Positions 2,609 through 35,241 of a stretch of 38,511 nt of DNA are shown piece by piece (within the stretch, counting starts at the first letter, position 1; every line of letters begins with the position of its first letter). The DNA comes from Eubacterium sp. ER2. Its GTDB lineage: Bacteria; Bacillota; Clostridia; Lachnospirales; Lachnospiraceae. Position numbers and translations under genes: made by a program. The notes beneath the pieces are model-generated. The model did no database searches. It saw nothing but the letters and a program-made list of their open reading frames with translations, and was not told the origin of the DNA. The stretch is from contig NZ_JPJE01000047.1 in the NCBI RefSeq assembly GCF_000765215.1, positions 1 through 38,511 of the forward strand. Reading direction: 5' to 3'.

Positions 2609-3589
2609 CTACTCGATTCCCCAATATTCCTTATATGTGTCAATATTGTCTTTTGTGCAAAGATTAAACTGCATGTGGGGATCCTCATCACATGAACCAG
2701 TCTCCAACACCTGAATCGCACGATCGGCTGCCTCTATTGCCATCTCTTTCATCGGATAAACAGCTGTGATATCCAGTGCACCATCTTCCATATTTCTGAT
2801 ATCTCCAGAAAGTCCATCTACGTTTGCCACCAAGATGTCGTCTGTTTTTCCTGCTGCTCTGACTGCAGCCGCGATGCCAATACCACAGTTTGAGTTGTTT
2901 CCGAAGATAGCAGAAATATCCGGATACTGCTGTAGCCAATCCTCTGTCTTCTTCATAGCTTCATCCTCCGTACAGACGCCATCAAAAACTTCCAAAACAT
3001 CGATATCATCGTATTGGCTGATCGCATCCTTAAATCCATCCCCTCTTTCCCTGCACACAAAAGCAACATCATATGTCAGCATAGTCAGTGTCCCTCTGTA
3101 ATCCAGGGCTTCTGCAACTGCCTCGCCCACAGCATAACCGGCTTCATAGTTATCTCCAGTAACAGATCCCACCGTCATATCCAAGAGAGAGTCATCCAAT
3201 ACCTGATTCACACTCAACACTGGGATATCAGCCGCATTACAAAGTTCAAATGCAGATTTAACTCCAACAGAATCGCATGCCTCTACAACGATGAGATCCG
3301 CTCCCTGACTGATAAAATCTTCTACGTCTTTTGTCTGCTGTGCCTGATCCGTATCTGCATCTTTGATAACAACTTCATACCCTTCTTTTTCCAATCTTTC
3401 CTTCATCGTATCACACAAAAGTGTCAAGCCTTCATTGGTATACATGGAGGTCGTGATCCCTACAAATCCTTTACTTTCTCCTCCTGAAGATTCATTGCTG
3501 TCTTTTTTCCCTTCACTTTCAGAACCACAAGCAGCTAATCCTGACATCATTAATACACATAACAAAACACTGATGATCTTCTTTTTCAT
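2609..3589 (-). CDS. Sugar-binding lipoprotein (periplasmic-binding-protein 4 / RbsB-like)
   Basis: A 326-residue exported substrate-binding protein. The N-terminus is MKKK followed by a hydrophobic stretch and the lipobox LAAC with the lipid-modified cysteine at residue 21, then a Ser/Gly/Glu-rich tether. The mature part has the two-lobed type I binding-protein look: VGITTSMYTNEG at the start, a DADTDQAQQ segment, and GADLIVVEACDS. A GTG-led extension to 3604 is open, but AAGGAGAAAAA sits before the ATG at 3589. It is the first gene of the operon, placed directly after promoter and operator. The ligand is unknown; the protein is diverged from the classical ribose and galactose receptors. Confidence 0.92.
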   Translation of the reverse strand: MKKKIISVLLCVLMMSGLAACGSESEGKKDSNESSGGESKGFVGITTSMYTNEGLTLLCDTMKERLEKEGYEVVIKDADTDQAQQTKDVEDFISQGADLIVVEACDSVGVKSAFELCNAADIPVLSVNQVLDDSLLDMTVGSVTGDNYEAGYAVGEAVAEALDYRGTLTMLTYDVAFVCRERGDGFKDAISQYDDIDVLEVFDGVCTEDEAMKKTEDWLQQYPDISAIFGNNSNCGIGIAAAVRAAGKTDDILVANVDGLSGDIRNMEDGALDITAVYPMKEMAIEAADRAIQVLETGSCDEDPHMQFNLCTKDNIDTYKEYWGIE

Positions 3590-3821: not shown

Positions 3822-3888
3822 ATCGAGTAGGGGAGATTTTCTCTCCCCTCTCACACCACCGTACATGCCATTCGGCATACGGCGGTTC
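3822..3888 (-). ncRNA. Group II intron domains V and VI
   Basis: Domain V spans about 3854-3888: a GC-rich hairpin starting GAACCGCCGTATGCC with the CGC catalytic triad. Domain VI spans about 3826-3850 as a hairpin with arms GGGGAG and CTCCCC. The matching region of the second copy (38421-38489) keeps the same pairing with changed bases, which supports the fold by covariation. Confidence 0.8.
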
Positions 3889-5170
3889 AACATAACTTCA
3901 AAGCATGACGCTCAGTATAATAGTCAAGACTGCTTATAAGCCCTGCTTTGGCTAATACATCTTTAGAGATTGCCCTGACAGCGCATGTCTTAGTCGCTAC
4001 CCAGTAATAACGATCTCCACAATACGCTGTCAACCTTGCAAGGTCTTTCCCGACTCCCAGTTTCTGCAAGCCCCATTGTCGCTTCCCTGGAACTTTCCAC
4101 TGTTTCCAGATGATGACTCTGAGTCTTGTCCTTAAATGTGCGTCTATCTCTGTCATTGCTGTTTTCATGGAACCAAGGGCATAGTAGTTAATCCAGCCTC
4201 TTGTCACCTGATTGACTTTCTCAATCTTACTCGTGACTGTTCCCACCATTTTCCTACAAGTCAGTTCTTTCAATCTGCCTTTGAGCTTTTTCACTGACTC
4301 CTGATGGGGCCTGCACTTCCATTCTTTCGTCTTGCTGTCTTTGTAGAACCCGAAACCAAGATATTTCAGTTTTGTCGGCCTTGTGATGTGGCTCTTTGTC
4401 ATGTTGACCTTTAACCCAAGTTTCCTCTGTATCCAGTCCGACACCGTCCGCATTACTCTTTTTGCACTCGATTCGCTTTTGACCTCTATTACACAGTCAT
4501 CTGCGTATCTTGTAAATCGGAGTCCTCTTGTTTCCAGTTCCTTATCCAGTTCATTCAGCATGATGTTTGACAGCAGGGGGGACAGATTTCCGCCCTGCGG
4601 GGTTCCCAGTTTTGTTTCCTCGTAGCCCTGCGGCGTCATAACTCCTGCTTTCAGGTACTTGCGGATTAGGGATTCTGTATCGCCATCATTGATTATGTCG
4701 TGAACCAGACTCATCAACTTGTCCTGCGGTACATTATCGAAAAACTTCTCCAGGTCAATATCTACGATCCATTCATAACCTTCGTTTAAATATACAAGCA
4801 GTTGTCTGATTGTCATTTCACAGCTTCGGTTCGGTCTGAAGCCATAACTCCACTCTGAAAACAAAGGCTCACACATGGGGCTTATCACCTGCACGATACC
4901 TTGCTGGATCACCCGGTCCATTACAGTCGGAATTCCCAGTTTTCTTACTCCACCATCCGGTTTGGGGATTTCCACCCTCCTGGCCGGCTGTGGTTTGTAC
5001 TTCCTGTGCCTGATTTGATTCCTGATACTTTCCCAGTTCTCTTTGATATAATCGCCGAGTTCTTCAATCGTCACCTCATCTACTCCTCCTGCACCTTTGT
5101 TGGCACAGACCTTTTTGTATGCAGTGTTCATGTTGTCTTTGGACAGTATCTTTTCCAACAGTTCTGACAT
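3887..5170 (-). CDS. ltrA: Group II intron reverse transcriptase/maturase
   Basis: A 427-residue intron-encoded protein. The order is an RT N-terminal region (KVCANKGAGGVDEVTIEEL), fingers with RRVEIPKPDGGVRKLGIPT, palm with VDIDLEKFFDNV, GTPQGGNLSPLLSNI and the catalytic YADD at about residue 221, then the thumb/X maturase domain with GWINYYALG. No C-terminal HNH endonuclease follows, as expected for class C enzymes. The start at 5170 is preceded by GAGGAGAAAGC. The stop codon overlaps the first bases of domain V. It folds and splices its own intron RNA and reverse-transcribes it at the target. All core motifs look intact. Confidence 0.95.
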   Translation of the reverse strand: MSELLEKILSKDNMNTAYKKVCANKGAGGVDEVTIEELGDYIKENWESIRNQIRHRKYKPQPARRVEIPKPDGGVRKLGIPTVMDRVIQQGIVQVISPMCEPLFSEWSYGFRPNRSCEMTIRQLLVYLNEGYEWIVDIDLEKFFDNVPQDKLMSLVHDIINDGDTESLIRKYLKAGVMTPQGYEETKLGTPQGGNLSPLLSNIMLNELDKELETRGLRFTRYADDCVIEVKSESSAKRVMRTVSDWIQRKLGLKVNMTKSHITRPTKLKYLGFGFYKDSKTKEWKCRPHQESVKKLKGRLKELTCRKMVGTVTSKIEKVNQVTRGWINYYALGSMKTAMTEIDAHLRTRLRVIIWKQWKVPGKRQWGLQKLGVGKDLARLTAYCGDRYYWVATKTCAVRAISKDVLAKAGLISSLDYYTERHALKLC

Positions 5171-5668
5171 TGCCTTGTGTGCTTTCTCCTCGTTCTCACG
5201 GATTCGCCCTAAGCTATGCAGTACCTGCTCATTTACGTTTCGCCATTCCTGCCGTTAGGTATTCCATGAGGCATACATTTGATTACACGGTTACATTGTT
5301 CGGTCCTTCGGCAACGCTCATTTCAGAGCTTTGCCTACTACGACTTCTGCTGACTTCTCACAGTTCGTTGTTACTACGGTATATCTCCGTCTGTGAGACC
5401 TCGCGGGATAAGCCTGCCAGTCTTTCCTCGTCTACCCGCCTGATTTACGCACATGGGTTACGGTTGCCTTTAGGACTTCGCTATCTTGGGCCAGCTTATC
5501 CGCCATGTACGCCTTATATCAGGTTTCTGTTCGTCAGGCTACGATTTCGCTATCCCTTCTTCTCGTCCACACCTCGCGATGTAAACCTTGGGAGTCACTA
5601 TGGGGTTCGTTGGCAACTACGCCCCTTGTGGACTTTCACCACAGACTGACGGCATGCCCGTCATACAC
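5171..5668 (-). ncRNA. Group II intron RNA domains I-III (5' noncoding part)
   Basis: This 498-base stretch between the intron 5' end and the maturase start holds no protein gene. It begins GTGTATGACGG and contains GTGGTGAAAGTCCACAAGGG, a typical early domain I segment of class C introns, followed by several short hairpin-forming blocks. Open frames crossing it on either strand are not supported by ribosome sites or recognisable protein sequence. Individual domain I to III boundaries were not resolved by eye. Confidence 0.75.
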
Positions 5669-32623: not shown

Positions 32624-33427
32624 ATGTGTATAACCAAAAAAGTAAATATGGATCGCTCAGAATATCCCACTGCGGACCGGGAGTACAAGGACCGTCTCTT
32701 CCGCTTTGTCTTCAACAACAGGGAGGACCTTCTGTCTCTGTACAACGCTGTGGCCGGGACCAGCTACACAGACCCGGACAGTCTTGGGATCAACATTGCG
32801 AAGCTGTACGAGAAGATCATTGCCCAGAACAATATCAACATCTACAGCTCGGGAGCCAAAAAATTCCCCTTCCCCCAGCACATTGTGTTCTACAACGGCA
32901 CCGACAGCCAGCCGGACCAGACAGTCCTGCGGCTTTCCGACCTCTTTGAGGGACAGGAGGACGGGAAAACGCCGGCTCTTGAGTGCGTTACCGTGATGCT
33001 GAACATCAACTACGGCCACAACCGGGCGCTCATGGAGAAATGCCGCCGTCTGGAGGAGTATTCTATCTTCATTGACAGGGTACGAGGAAGGCTGGCAGAA
33101 AACCTGCCACTGGAGGAGGCCATCATGGCAGCCATCGACGACTGCATCCAGGACAGTATTCTAAAGGATATCCTGATCCAGCAGAAAGCGGAGGTAGTGC
33201 AGATGATACTGGAAACATTTGACAAAGACAAGTACGAGAAAGCCATCAAGAGTGAGGCCTATGAGGATGGGTATACAGAGGGCAGAAAGGAGGGCTATGA
33301 CCTGAGGCTCCTGGAGCAGGTGCAGAAGAAGCTGGCCAGAGGAAAATCCGCAGAGGAGATTGCCCAAGACCTGGAGGAGACGCCGGAGACCATCGCCGGT
33401 CTGATCTCCCGGCTTCAGGAAAAGTAA
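32624..33427 (+). CDS. Rpn-family (PD-(D/E)XK nuclease/transposase-like) protein, core apparently deleted
   Basis: A 267-residue protein with the ends of the Rpn-type family: YPTADREYKDRLFRFVFNN and LLSLYNAVAGTSYTDP at the start, FPFPQHIVFYNGT in the middle, VTVMLNINYGHNRALMEKCRRLEEYSIFIDRVRG, and a C-terminal RKEGYDLRLLEQVQKKLARGKSAEEIAQDLEE repeat-rich tail. The usual segment with the Asp/Glu-x-Lys active site, which lies between YNAV and VFYNG, seems to be missing, with only about 35 residues there. GGAGG lies 11 bases before the ATG. It may be an inactive remnant. Confidence 0.72.
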   Translation: MCITKKVNMDRSEYPTADREYKDRLFRFVFNNREDLLSLYNAVAGTSYTDPDSLGINIAKLYEKIIAQNNINIYSSGAKKFPFPQHIVFYNGTDSQPDQTVLRLSDLFEGQEDGKTPALECVTVMLNINYGHNRALMEKCRRLEEYSIFIDRVRGRLAENLPLEEAIMAAIDDCIQDSILKDILIQQKAEVVQMILETFDKDKYEKAIKSEAYEDGYTEGRKEGYDLRLLEQVQKKLARGKSAEEIAQDLEETPETIAGLISRLQEK

Positions 33428-33428
33428 G

Positions 33429-34175
33429 TCAGCTCCCGTTGTATTTATAGCCAAAGCCTGTGATGGTTTTTATGGTTTCATGCCCGCAGGTAAAAGGCCT
33501 TAGCTTTTTCCGTATCTGATAGACGGTATTTTCCACTGCGTGGCAGGACTGATTGGAGGGCTCCTGCCACACAGTTTCGTATATGTTTTCTTTTGTAAAA
33601 GAGATGTCCGGATGGGACCAGAGAAGATACAGGACCGCAAATTCCTTTTCTGAGAGATAGATTTCCCGGTCTCCCAGCACTGCCTGGCGTATGGAGGCGT
33701 CCATCGTCAGCCTGCCGGCCAGGGGCACTTCCATCCCCCAGAGTCTTCGTATCTCCAGACAGTCCTTTTCTATCTGCGCAAGGAGCAGGGAGGCGCTGTC
33801 AAAGCTTCTGACATCCCGTATTTTTCTGTACAGGCGTAGAGTCGCCCTGCTGCCGAATATTTCTCTTTGAAAGTCCAGAATATGGATTTTGACGAGCACA
33901 GCCTTGTCGCTGTCCATGGTGGGGCAGGGGCCGATGTGTACGGCGCAGCAGTACCTCTCACTTTCTCTCCCTGGATCTTCCCCGCAGCTTTCCCCACTGT
34001 ACAGAAGGATTTTCCCCGCATATACGCCTGTCCCGGGCAGCTGTGTGCCCTGATCCGGCCGCAGATCCGCGGTGGGCATCCCCACAAGCCGCCCGATACC
34101 CCTCTTGTGTATGATTTCCCCTCTTATCTCACCTGACAGCAGCTCTTCCTCTGCCTTCTTCTCTGTCATTTTCAT
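33429..34175 (-). CDS. Riboflavin-kinase-like domain fused to OmpR-type winged helix (candidate flavin-sensing regulator)
   Basis: A 248-residue two-domain protein. Residues 14-150 resemble the RibF kinase domain: GEIIHKRGIGRLVGMPTADL, a PGTGVYAGKI strand, YCCAVHIGPCPT, IHILDFQREIFG, FDSASLLLAQIEKD. Residues 165-248 form an OmpR/PhoB-like winged helix (LGDREIYLSEKEFAVLYLLWSH, then VENTVYQIRKKLRPF, ITGFGYKY). Key kinase residues are altered: PTAN is PTAD (Asp37) and the catalytic Glu position before HILDF is Lys96. This suggests flavin binding without kinase activity. It is 29 bases after ribU and probably regulates it. Archaeal RbkR has a similar regulator-kinase pairing but a different kinase family. 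Confidence 0.82.
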   Translation of the reverse strand: MKMTEKKAEEELLSGEIRGEIIHKRGIGRLVGMPTADLRPDQGTQLPGTGVYAGKILLYSGESCGEDPGRESERYCCAVHIGPCPTMDSDKAVLVKIHILDFQREIFGSRATLRLYRKIRDVRSFDSASLLLAQIEKDCLEIRRLWGMEVPLAGRLTMDASIRQAVLGDREIYLSEKEFAVLYLLWSHPDISFTKENIYETVWQEPSNQSCHAVENTVYQIRKKLRPFTCGHETIKTITGFGYKYNGS

Positions 34176-34204: not shown

Positions 34205-34849
34205 TCACATCATTCCATTTAATACAAGGATCAGCATAACACAGGTAACGATCACCGCTGCCGCCAGCAGGAGGAGACCCCTGTGCCGTCCTCCGCCCCT
34301 CTGTTCCGCTCCCTCTATGTAGCCGCTCTTTCTGAGGGCAGTGACCACCGGCTTGTAGAGCAGAAAGGTAAATGCCGCGTTCAGGCCGCTTTTTAGCAGA
34401 TTGAAGGGGAGAAAGGCCGGCAGGAGAAGCTGCGCCACCGCCTCCCGCGGGTAGCCCATGTAAATGGGAGTGACCAGGTAGTTCCAGAGCAGCATCACCG
34501 CTGTCATGGCCACGCAGGCCGCTCCCAGTGCAGCCAGCGCCCCCTTCAGGCTGCGGAATTTCCGGTAGATGACCGACGCCGTGCAGGCAAAGGCACAGGT
34601 GGACACAATGTTCATAACGCATCCTATAACCCCCGTATCGCTGACCGTCACCATCTCGATCACGGATACAATGACTGACACGGCGAAGGCGGTCAGCGGT
34701 CCCCAGATCAGCCCTCCCAGAGTGATGACAATATCTTTCGGATCATAGCTCAAAAAGAGCACAACCGGGATGCGCCCCAAAGCCATGACCACATAGGCAA
34801 TGGCAGACAGCATGGCGGCTGCCGTGATTTTCTTTGTCCTGTCGTCCAT
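34205..34849 (-). CDS. ribU: Riboflavin ECF transporter S component (RibU)
   Basis: A 214-residue membrane protein with six helices. The family pattern is clear: KKITAAAMLSAIAYVVMALGRIPVV, FLSYDPKDIVITLGGLIWGPLTAFAVS with the conserved D-P-K-D loop, VIVSVIEM, and LLWNYLVTPIYMGYPREAV. RibU binds riboflavin or FMN and works with the shared ECF module encoded elsewhere. GGAGG lies 10 bases before the ATG. No FMN riboswitch was found upstream; instead a hairpin or operator-like dyad lies in its leader and the next gene is a riboflavin-kinase-like winged-helix fusion. Confidence 0.93.
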   Translation of the reverse strand: MDDRTKKITAAAMLSAIAYVVMALGRIPVVLFLSYDPKDIVITLGGLIWGPLTAFAVSVIVSVIEMVTVSDTGVIGCVMNIVSTCAFACTASVIYRKFRSLKGALAALGAACVAMTAVMLLWNYLVTPIYMGYPREAVAQLLLPAFLPFNLLKSGLNAAFTFLLYKPVVTALRKSGYIEGAEQRGGGRHRGLLLLAAAVIVTCVMLILVLNGMM

Positions 34850-34880
34850 ACAGCTTTTACCTCCAGAGAAAATGAAGCAC

Positions 34881-34941
34881 CCGGAAGGGATCCCCCCTCC
34901 CGGATGTTATAAAGCATACACTCCGGAGGCATCCGCGGCAA
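34881..34941 (-). promoter_or_regulatory. Promoter and leader hairpin/operator of ribU
   Basis: Minus strand -35 TTGCCG (34936-34941), 17-base spacer, -10 TATGCT (34913-34918). Just after the start lies CCGGGAGGG-GGGAT-CCCTTCCGG (34881-34903), a 9-bp dyad with one G-T pair. It is either an RNA hairpin or a DNA operator for the regulator encoded downstream. The 34850-34980 region holds no gene and no recognisable FMN riboswitch. Confidence 0.5.
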
Positions 34942-34980
34942 GACTACGGCCTGATTTCGGAAACAATTCGGAACTGCCGC

Positions 34981-35241
34981 CTAGTATGTATTGACCAAAT
35001 ACCTGGCCCTTTCCAGATCCTTTCTCAGAACAAAGATTTCATACTCATACATAAGATCAATCGAACTTCCCACGCTTCCAAAGCTTCCACGGGCCGTGCC
35101 ATGGCCCATCCATCGGTTTCCGCTGCTCCTCGTCCTGTAGGTATAGGGAATTTTCTCCCTCTCCAGCGCCTCCCTCATCTCGTTAAAACGCTTCATGTCT
35201 CTTCCGATCCACAGGCTCTCCCTGTTAAAAATTGTGATCAT
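34981..35241 (-). CDS. Small DUF2007-like protein
   Basis: An 86-residue protein beginning MITIFNRESLWIGRDMKRFNEM and ending YEIFVLRKDLERARYLVNTY. The strand-helix-strand layout and the closing V-x-x-x-D-x-x-x-A helix resemble DUF2007 (GlnB-like signalling) proteins. An SSGNRWMGHGTARGS loop is unusually Gly/Ser-rich. GAGGAGGGGG precedes the ATG at 35241. The longer frame to 35439 is out of keeping with the ribosome site. It lies 14 bases after the membrane-protein gene and is probably part of the same operon. The role is unknown. Confidence 0.65.
   Translation of the reverse strand: MITIFNRESLWIGRDMKRFNEMREALEREKIPYTYRTRSSGNRWMGHGTARGSFGSVGSSIDLMYEYEIFVLRKDLERARYLVNTY

Follow-up and report, generated by a model that had tools for sequence, protein, structure and literature searches.

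A flavokinase-winged helix fusion encoded behind ribU as a candidate flavin-responsive regulator of riboflavin uptake in bacteria

Why should a gene directly behind a riboflavin transporter gene encode a flavin kinase domain joined to a DNA-binding domain? The question is raised by a locus of Eubacterium sp. ER2 (Lachnospiraceae), located in a stretch of 38,511 nucleotides of contig NZ_JPJE01000047.1 that was analysed as a whole (henceforth referred to as the window). The transporter gene, the fusion gene and its two domains are placed as follows.

34205 to 34849, minus strand: ribU, S component of an ECF-type riboflavin transporter, 214 aa (PF12822, ECF_trnsprt, 71.8 bits; RibU structures in the PDB).
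33429 to 34175 (stop codon included), minus strand: flavokinase-winged helix fusion gene, 248 aa with an ATG start (open reading frame and Pfam).
33744 to 34130, minus strand: Flavokinase domain PF01687, residues 16-144 (Pfam and alignments).
33444 to 33668, minus strand: OmpR/PhoB-type winged helix PF00486, residues 170-244 (Pfam and alignment).

The initial annotation of this DNA had proposed that a RibF-type kinase domain and an OmpR-type DNA-binding domain are united in one protein, and the Pfam searches agree: Flavokinase (PF01687) was matched at 86.6 bits against a curated cut-off of 19.6, and Trans_reg_C (PF00486) at 60.7 bits against a cut-off of 26.2. These were the only families found in the protein at E 0.1, so that PF01687 is its sole kinase family at that threshold and a receiver domain is absent. 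The fusion gene begins 29 nt 3' of ribU on the same strand, as annotated, and the identity of the transporter is backed by matches to the solved RibU structures 5kc0, 5kbw and 3p5n (E 1.6e-17 to 1.5e-10). The annotation had also read two essential kinase residues as replaced, and alignment to the riboflavin kinase (RFK) module of C. ammoniagenes (5a88) bears this out: D37 aligns with the Asn of the PTAN motif, which here reads PTAD (codon 34065-34067), and K96 aligns with the Glu of VES (codon 33888-33890; both codons counted from the ORF start at 34175). In the part available of the work on the C. ammoniagenes enzyme, E268 is given as the catalytic base and residues 207-210 as the PTAN motif (PMC5428420). 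The flavokinase (FK) domain of the window protein further carries a 12-residue insertion (residues 59-70) that is absent from all 11 homologues in our alignment A1. In the winged helix, the motif HAVENT..Q.RK (residues 212-223), which presumably forms the recognition helix, is invariant across the 12 rows of A1. Single-sequence structure prediction of the window protein gave a mean pLDDT of 30.8 and no usable fold.

We determined how widely the fusion occurs. Within the genus, where 11 genomes were searched at E 1e-25, only the window's own gave a match. At E 1e-22 the family had matches in 13 of its 397 genomes, and 12 (the window's included) encode a full fusion, which makes it rare (12/397); the remaining match, in genome G201, comprises a winged helix only. 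Searches with profile A1 yielded at least one further full fusion in the order (G719, among 392 genomes) and at least one in the phylum (G1045, among 398 genomes); these searches scored only the six or seven top candidates of each genome, so further fusions are possible, and their threshold was passed by 138 and 79 genomes, respectively, nearly all of them, like RibF, by virtue of the kinase part only. Full-length fusions thus number at least 14, that is, the window protein and 13 others. Both Pfam families are matched by all 12 members of A1 and also by the proteins of loci L100 and L101, where HAVENT..Q.RK is likewise present. The expectation that ribU adjoins the gene in homologues holds throughout: each of the 14 fusion genes lies directly behind a same-strand ribU, and the RibU proteins beside the 13 other fusions share 59-71% identity with that of the window and belong to the same ribU subfamily. 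Since the 14 rows contain two near-identical pairs (L036/L037 and L038/L039), they represent about 12 independent cases. The remaining neighbours look, by eye, to differ between loci; at one of them an azaaromatic (yjdF) riboswitch stands directly 3' of the fusion gene (L034:6839-6959, minus strand). An identical 114-aa ORF with a winged helix only, including HAVENT..Q.RK, was seen in two genera (L040:5840-6184 and L103:2387-2731); it may belong to a shared mobile segment, and no ribU match was present in the stretches fetched around either copy.

A regulator of ribU would be expected to leave a mark in the DNA upstream, and the leader of the window operon contains the following features.

34956 to 34973, minus strand: predicted operator TTCCGAATTGTTTCCGAA, two 7-bp direct repeats with a period of 11 bp, exact in 14/14 fusion loci.
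34936 to 34941, minus strand: -35-like hexamer TTGCCG, 14 nt past the operator, 4/6 consensus (TTG at the same spacing in 14/14).
34913 to 34918, minus strand: -10-like hexamer TATGCT, 17 nt past the -35 hexamer, 4/6 consensus (TAT at the same spacing in 13/14).
34878 to 34906, minus strand: terminator-like leader hairpin containing 34881-34903 (RNA folding z -2.20).

An exact TTCCGAA-N4-TTCCGAA stands on the coding strand 5' of ribU at all 14 fusion loci, and the chance of such a site is about 4e-6 per 600-nt leader. The copy at 34956-34973 is the only exact one in the window and in its whole genome. The spacing to the promoter is equally regular: TTG follows 14 nt past the repeat in 14/14 loci and TAT 17 nt past the -35 hexamer in 13/14, with a shift of one nucleotide in L032. 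Across the fusion loci the hexamers themselves agree with the consensus at between 6 and 11 of their 12 positions; the window has 8/12, and a consensus promoter scan of 34840-35000, which needs 9 matches, reported none. The PHO box was first defined as two 7-nt direct repeats 4 nt apart (PMC4415409, in the part available), and the tandem repeat at ribU thus has the pho-box geometry expected for a domain of the OmpR/PhoB type. The annotation had placed the DNA site of the regulator at 34881-34903; we rejected this stretch as operator because it lies 3' of the predicted promoter, just past it, within the terminator-like RNA hairpin, and the conserved repeat is at 34956-34973.

Having located the repeat, we assessed whether it tracks the fusion. 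Among the 397 family genomes the exact site occurs in 45, namely in all 12 fusion genomes, each with exactly one exact site and that at ribU, and in 33 of the 385 others (Fisher test, 1e-12, relatedness ignored); a control with the reversed pattern had matches in 22 of the 397. Outside the family, G1045 has one exact site, at ribU, and G719 has two, one at ribU and the second away from it, inside a 159-aa ORF. We therefore rejected a wide regulon of exact sites, as the 12 family fusion genomes and G1045 each have a single one, at ribU. The search for one-mismatch sites covered 6 genomes; that of the window has two, both within ORFs. A survey of the ribU subfamily gave 36 places in 35 of 338 genomes, of which 30 could be read as loci. 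The exact repeat is present at 9/9 of these loci with the fusion and at 0/21 without it (Fisher test, 7e-8, relatedness ignored). Near misses among the 21 comprise one mismatch at L205, two at L207 and three to six at the rest. One of the six places outside the 30 is the fusion locus G274:C25 (L039); at the other five no fusion was found, and the exact site is absent from four of those genomes. Genome G234 has one exact site, on a different contig from its ribU.

These data bear on the alternative that the repeat is bound by some other regulator of the host and that the fusion protein acts elsewhere. The window genome is rich in OmpR-type winged helices, 17 of 18 further matches being to that domain, and a search of its contigs for related loci returned five: L009 matches the kinase part and the other four the winged helix. 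Yet the repeat follows the fusion, as the 9/9 against 0/21 distribution indicates: in fusion genome G274, a second ribU of the same subfamily (L204, contig C53) has a riboswitch, no fusion or repeat nearby and a best match with six mismatches, and in a genome of the window's own genus (G002, L207), which has ribU without the fusion, the exact site is absent altogether. The two-mismatch site of G002 lies at -469 in an apparently coding stretch of the upstream gene; we took it as chance and not as an operator. At L205 the fusion gene behind ribU is broken off after about 70 residues (L205:2151-2402), and there the repeat has one mismatch and stands 3 instead of 14 nt from the TTG, so that gene and site seem to decay together. 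Another regulator at the repeat is thus very improbable. The fusion, the synteny, the repeat, its spacing and their co-occurrence are established at the level of sequence; that the fusion protein binds the repeat is very probable.

How does this predicted control relate to the FMN riboswitch? The annotation had noted that the ribU leader lacks one, and this stands for the window, where the FMN riboswitch (RF00050) was not found at the Rfam gathering score; it fails as a general trait, as 8/14 fusion operons have an FMN riboswitch above the cut-off between promoter and ribU. Six are without a recognised one: L030 (G370) has a sub-threshold match of 34.6 bits, and in G000, G362, G214, G045 and G719 a match between promoter and ribU is absent. 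The distance from repeat to ribU is 95-133 nt without the riboswitch, 217 nt with the remnant and 314-337 nt with the riboswitch. At ribU-subfamily loci without the fusion, 18/21 have the riboswitch. An association of the fusion with riboswitch loss is suggestive only (8/14 against 18/21; Fisher test, 0.11, or 0.04 when L222, with only 209 bases upstream, is dropped). The presence of FMN riboswitches before ribU at both kinds of locus ties the operon to flavin. The hairpin at 34878-34906 is perhaps a remnant of the expression platform of a riboswitch. Aptamer-like pieces are visible by eye in the L029 leader; the ribU leader of L100 has a terminator hairpin and T run at about 3400-3500, without an FMN aptamer.

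Flavin supply in the genomes concerned is consistent with a need for riboflavin uptake. The window genome (3.27 Mb, 74 contigs) encodes a canonical RibF in which both PTFN and VES are preserved, so FMN can probably be made without the fusion protein; lumazine synthase was not found in it at E 0.001, so riboflavin probably has to be imported. Its one FMN riboswitch is on contig C62, about 130 nt 5' of a second ribU (L015:4961-5596), the product of which matches RibU 3p5n (E 7e-30, PDB) and is 28% identical to the window RibU over 190 residues. Similarly, canonical RibF scored above the cut-off in 14/14 fusion genomes, and lumazine synthase was not found in 13/14, so that riboflavin uptake probably matters in them.

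We next considered whether the regulator arose from a kinase by loss of catalysis, as the annotation had supposed; it had suggested examining in homologues whether residues 37 and 96 are always altered. They are not. The PTAN Asn is kept in 13/13 other fusions and the catalytic Glu in 12/13, with both present in 12/13; the only other fusion without the Glu is L101, where Gly replaces it. The annotation had named homologues with intact PTAN and Glu and with kinase activity as evidence against its model, and as far as sequence goes such homologues exist. Loss of catalytic residues is therefore rejected as the trait that defines the family, and the idea that it made the regulator is not supported. 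As the kinase sites of relatives are mostly intact, the fusion and its operator came first, and the loss in the window copy was a late change. What stands of the proposed flavin sensor is a flavokinase-derived and probably DNA-binding regulator of ribU, in view of the adjacency and the repeat at 14/14 loci; its origin through catalytic loss does not.

The ancestry of the fused kinase lies elsewhere. A tree of FK domains (which did not include RibR) separates the 14 fused domains from the 16 RibF kinases (99/96; 200/200 bootstrap trees), and we thus rejected an origin of the fused kinase from RibF. The fused domains group by themselves at 91/80, which supports a single origin; their nearest neighbour is the stand-alone FK of L102, joining them at 99/96, followed by the stand-alone kinases L104 and L106, and a fourth, L105, falls with RibF. 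At L102 (4700-5759) a ribU of the same subfamily is followed by the stand-alone flavokinase, behind an FMN riboswitch, and the best match to the repeat has four mismatches. Judging by this tree, the winged helix was thus probably acquired once, by a stand-alone kinase encoded behind ribU. The other RibF match in the genome of L102 (G106) is the adenylyltransferase part only, so the L102 kinase is probably needed there; together the two constitute a natural split of the bifunctional enzyme. In a tree of RibU, which is poorly resolved and whose bootstrap had not settled, the fusion-linked RibUs form no single clade and require six changes; gain, loss and transfer of the operon are consequently indistinguishable.

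The mostly intact sites raise the alternative that the protein is an active, autoregulating kinase with FMN synthesis at the point of uptake as its main job, the winged helix only setting the level of the operon. Conservation of the Asn (13/13) and the Glu (12/13) in the other fusions is in its favour, as is the probable need for the kinase at L102, the closest outgroup. On the other hand, a full RibF is kept in 14/14 fusion genomes, and the two fusions without the Glu still have an intact repeat and winged helix; we consider this alternative unlikely. A regulatory protein with a flavin-binding kinase domain remains our preferred reading, and that the fusion protein senses a flavin is likely, although less so than that it binds the repeat.

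The window copy itself is in all likelihood kinase-dead, given its altered residues. To compare its two domains we counted, leaving out one row at a time, the departures from otherwise invariant columns in 12 rows (the near copies L037 and L039 were dropped, and column 96, at which two rows differ, is outside the counts). The window FK differs at 6/29 such columns and its winged helix at 0/25; for L101 the figures are 3/26 and 0/25, and for the other ten rows 0-2 of 23-25 in the FK and 0-2 of 25-27 in the winged helix. The two copies without the Glu are thus also the most altered elsewhere in the FK (L101 by a small margin), with a winged helix intact at the counted columns. Could the FK domain of the window copy simply be decaying, leaving a constitutive regulator with no flavin response? 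The 6/29 against 0/25 columns, the 12 extra residues and the lower FK score (86.6 bits, compared to 115.5 in L100 and 120.7 in L101) are as decay would predict. However, the frame is open and the score of the domain well exceeds its cut-off, binding can survive changed catalytic residues, and the RibU of the window genome is likewise on a long branch (0.42 compared to 0.21 in L100), so that rapid change extends beyond the FK domain. The relative rates are accordingly mixed, the window FK being fast against its own winged helix and not against its own RibU. We regard decay as rather improbable, a little less so than an active kinase in the family at large; whether the window copy still binds a flavin could equally well go either way.

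Overall, we favour the reading that the fusion protein is a dedicated, flavin-responsive transcription regulator of the ribU operon, and consider it fairly likely, with activation the more probable mode. Its N-terminal FK domain would be the sensor and would bind riboflavin or FMN, probably together with nucleotide and Mg2+. The flavin-bound state would set whether the tandem TTCCGAA repeat is occupied by two winged helices in a head-to-tail arrangement. At low intracellular flavin, the ribU promoter would most likely be activated, leading to more riboflavin uptake and more of the regulator itself. In relatives, as the kinase site is intact in most of them, the protein may signal flavin and convert it at the same time; the window copy, with catalytic Glu and PTAN Asn replaced, would most likely be a sensor without catalysis, the ordinary RibF of the cell making FMN.

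The window operator is centred about 59 bp 5' of the presumed transcription start, and activators commonly occupy that position. Repression is frequent among other vitamin regulators, and the flavin-bound protein might instead hold transcription down from its upstream site. Promoters near consensus, as in L029, L034 and L035 (11/12 matches each), would seem to need no activator, and as the promoters of relatives are not uniformly weak the case for activation is weakened. Nevertheless, the site does not overlap the promoter, and the 14 nt between its end and the -35 hexamer are a fixed spacing in 14/14 loci, which argues against a repressor. Repression is thus the less probable of the two, although it is the most plausible of the alternatives weighed here, and activation is moderately favoured. 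Both ribU genes of C. scindens are raised when riboflavin is low, and the accessible part of that report names riboswitches there and no protein (PMC12934955).

Enzyme-regulator proteins as such have precedents. RbkR of archaea joins a riboflavin kinase to a DNA-binding domain and controls riboflavin genes; it uses a CTP-dependent kinase, whereas the fusion has a RibF-type PF01687 kinase and an OmpR-type PF00486 part. NadR and BirA are further proteins of this kind. With OmpR/PhoB response regulators the fusion shares the winged helix, and the PHO box, as described in the text cited above, likewise consists of two 7-nt direct repeats 4 nt apart; in the fusion, however, a flavokinase stands where the receiver domain would be. 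RibR of Bacillus subtilis is described as a monofunctional flavokinase that regulates riboflavin genes in a cell which also has RibFC (PMC7693651, in the part available). The likeness is that of a flavokinase with a regulatory role beside a full RibF-type enzyme. Compared by that description, RibR binds RNA and acts on FMN riboswitches, whereas the fusion has a DNA-binding winged helix and a repeat 5' of the promoter (PMC7693651); in a tree without RibR, the fused FK domains are separate from RibF and cluster with stand-alone kinases. As RibR and RbkR are already known, the new part is that a flavokinase of bacteria is joined to a DNA-binding domain and paired with a conserved operator, and the titles and abstracts searched (subscription literature being mostly outside them) contained no published description of a flavokinase-winged helix fusion.

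Control of bacterial riboflavin genes by flavin is known mainly through the FMN riboswitch, which has the same gene and the same presumed signal and is also present in 8/14 fusion operons. The riboswitch acts on the transcript, whereas the target of the fusion would be a DNA site, and the window operon has no recognised riboswitch. The riboswitch's work appears here to be shared by a protein derived from a kinase, with a predicted operator of 18 bp, and in 6/14 operons this protein appears to do it where no riboswitch is recognised. We tentatively propose, from the comparison of these genomes, a bacterial transcription factor for vitamin B2 with a new architecture, in which a flavokinase gained a PhoB-type winged helix once and recognises a private pho-box-like repeat at ribU, with control first shared with the FMN riboswitch and taken over where the riboswitch decayed, and with catalysis given up at least twice, in the lineages of the window and of L101, to leave a pure flavin sensor. 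The operon forms a natural series, from riboswitch alone through both layers to regulator alone, which lets one ask how a protein replaces an RNA switch and how an enzyme becomes a sensor. Because no lumazine synthase was found in 13/14 fusion genomes, imported riboflavin is probably needed, and the circuit thereby bears on the cross-feeding of vitamins.

Elsewhere in the window, a 267-aa ORF convergent with the fusion gene (32624-33427, plus strand) matched no Pfam family above the cut-off; it may resemble Rpn/transposase-like nucleases. Pieces of a group II intron (RF02001, RF01998 and RF00029) lie at 3822-5583 on the minus strand.
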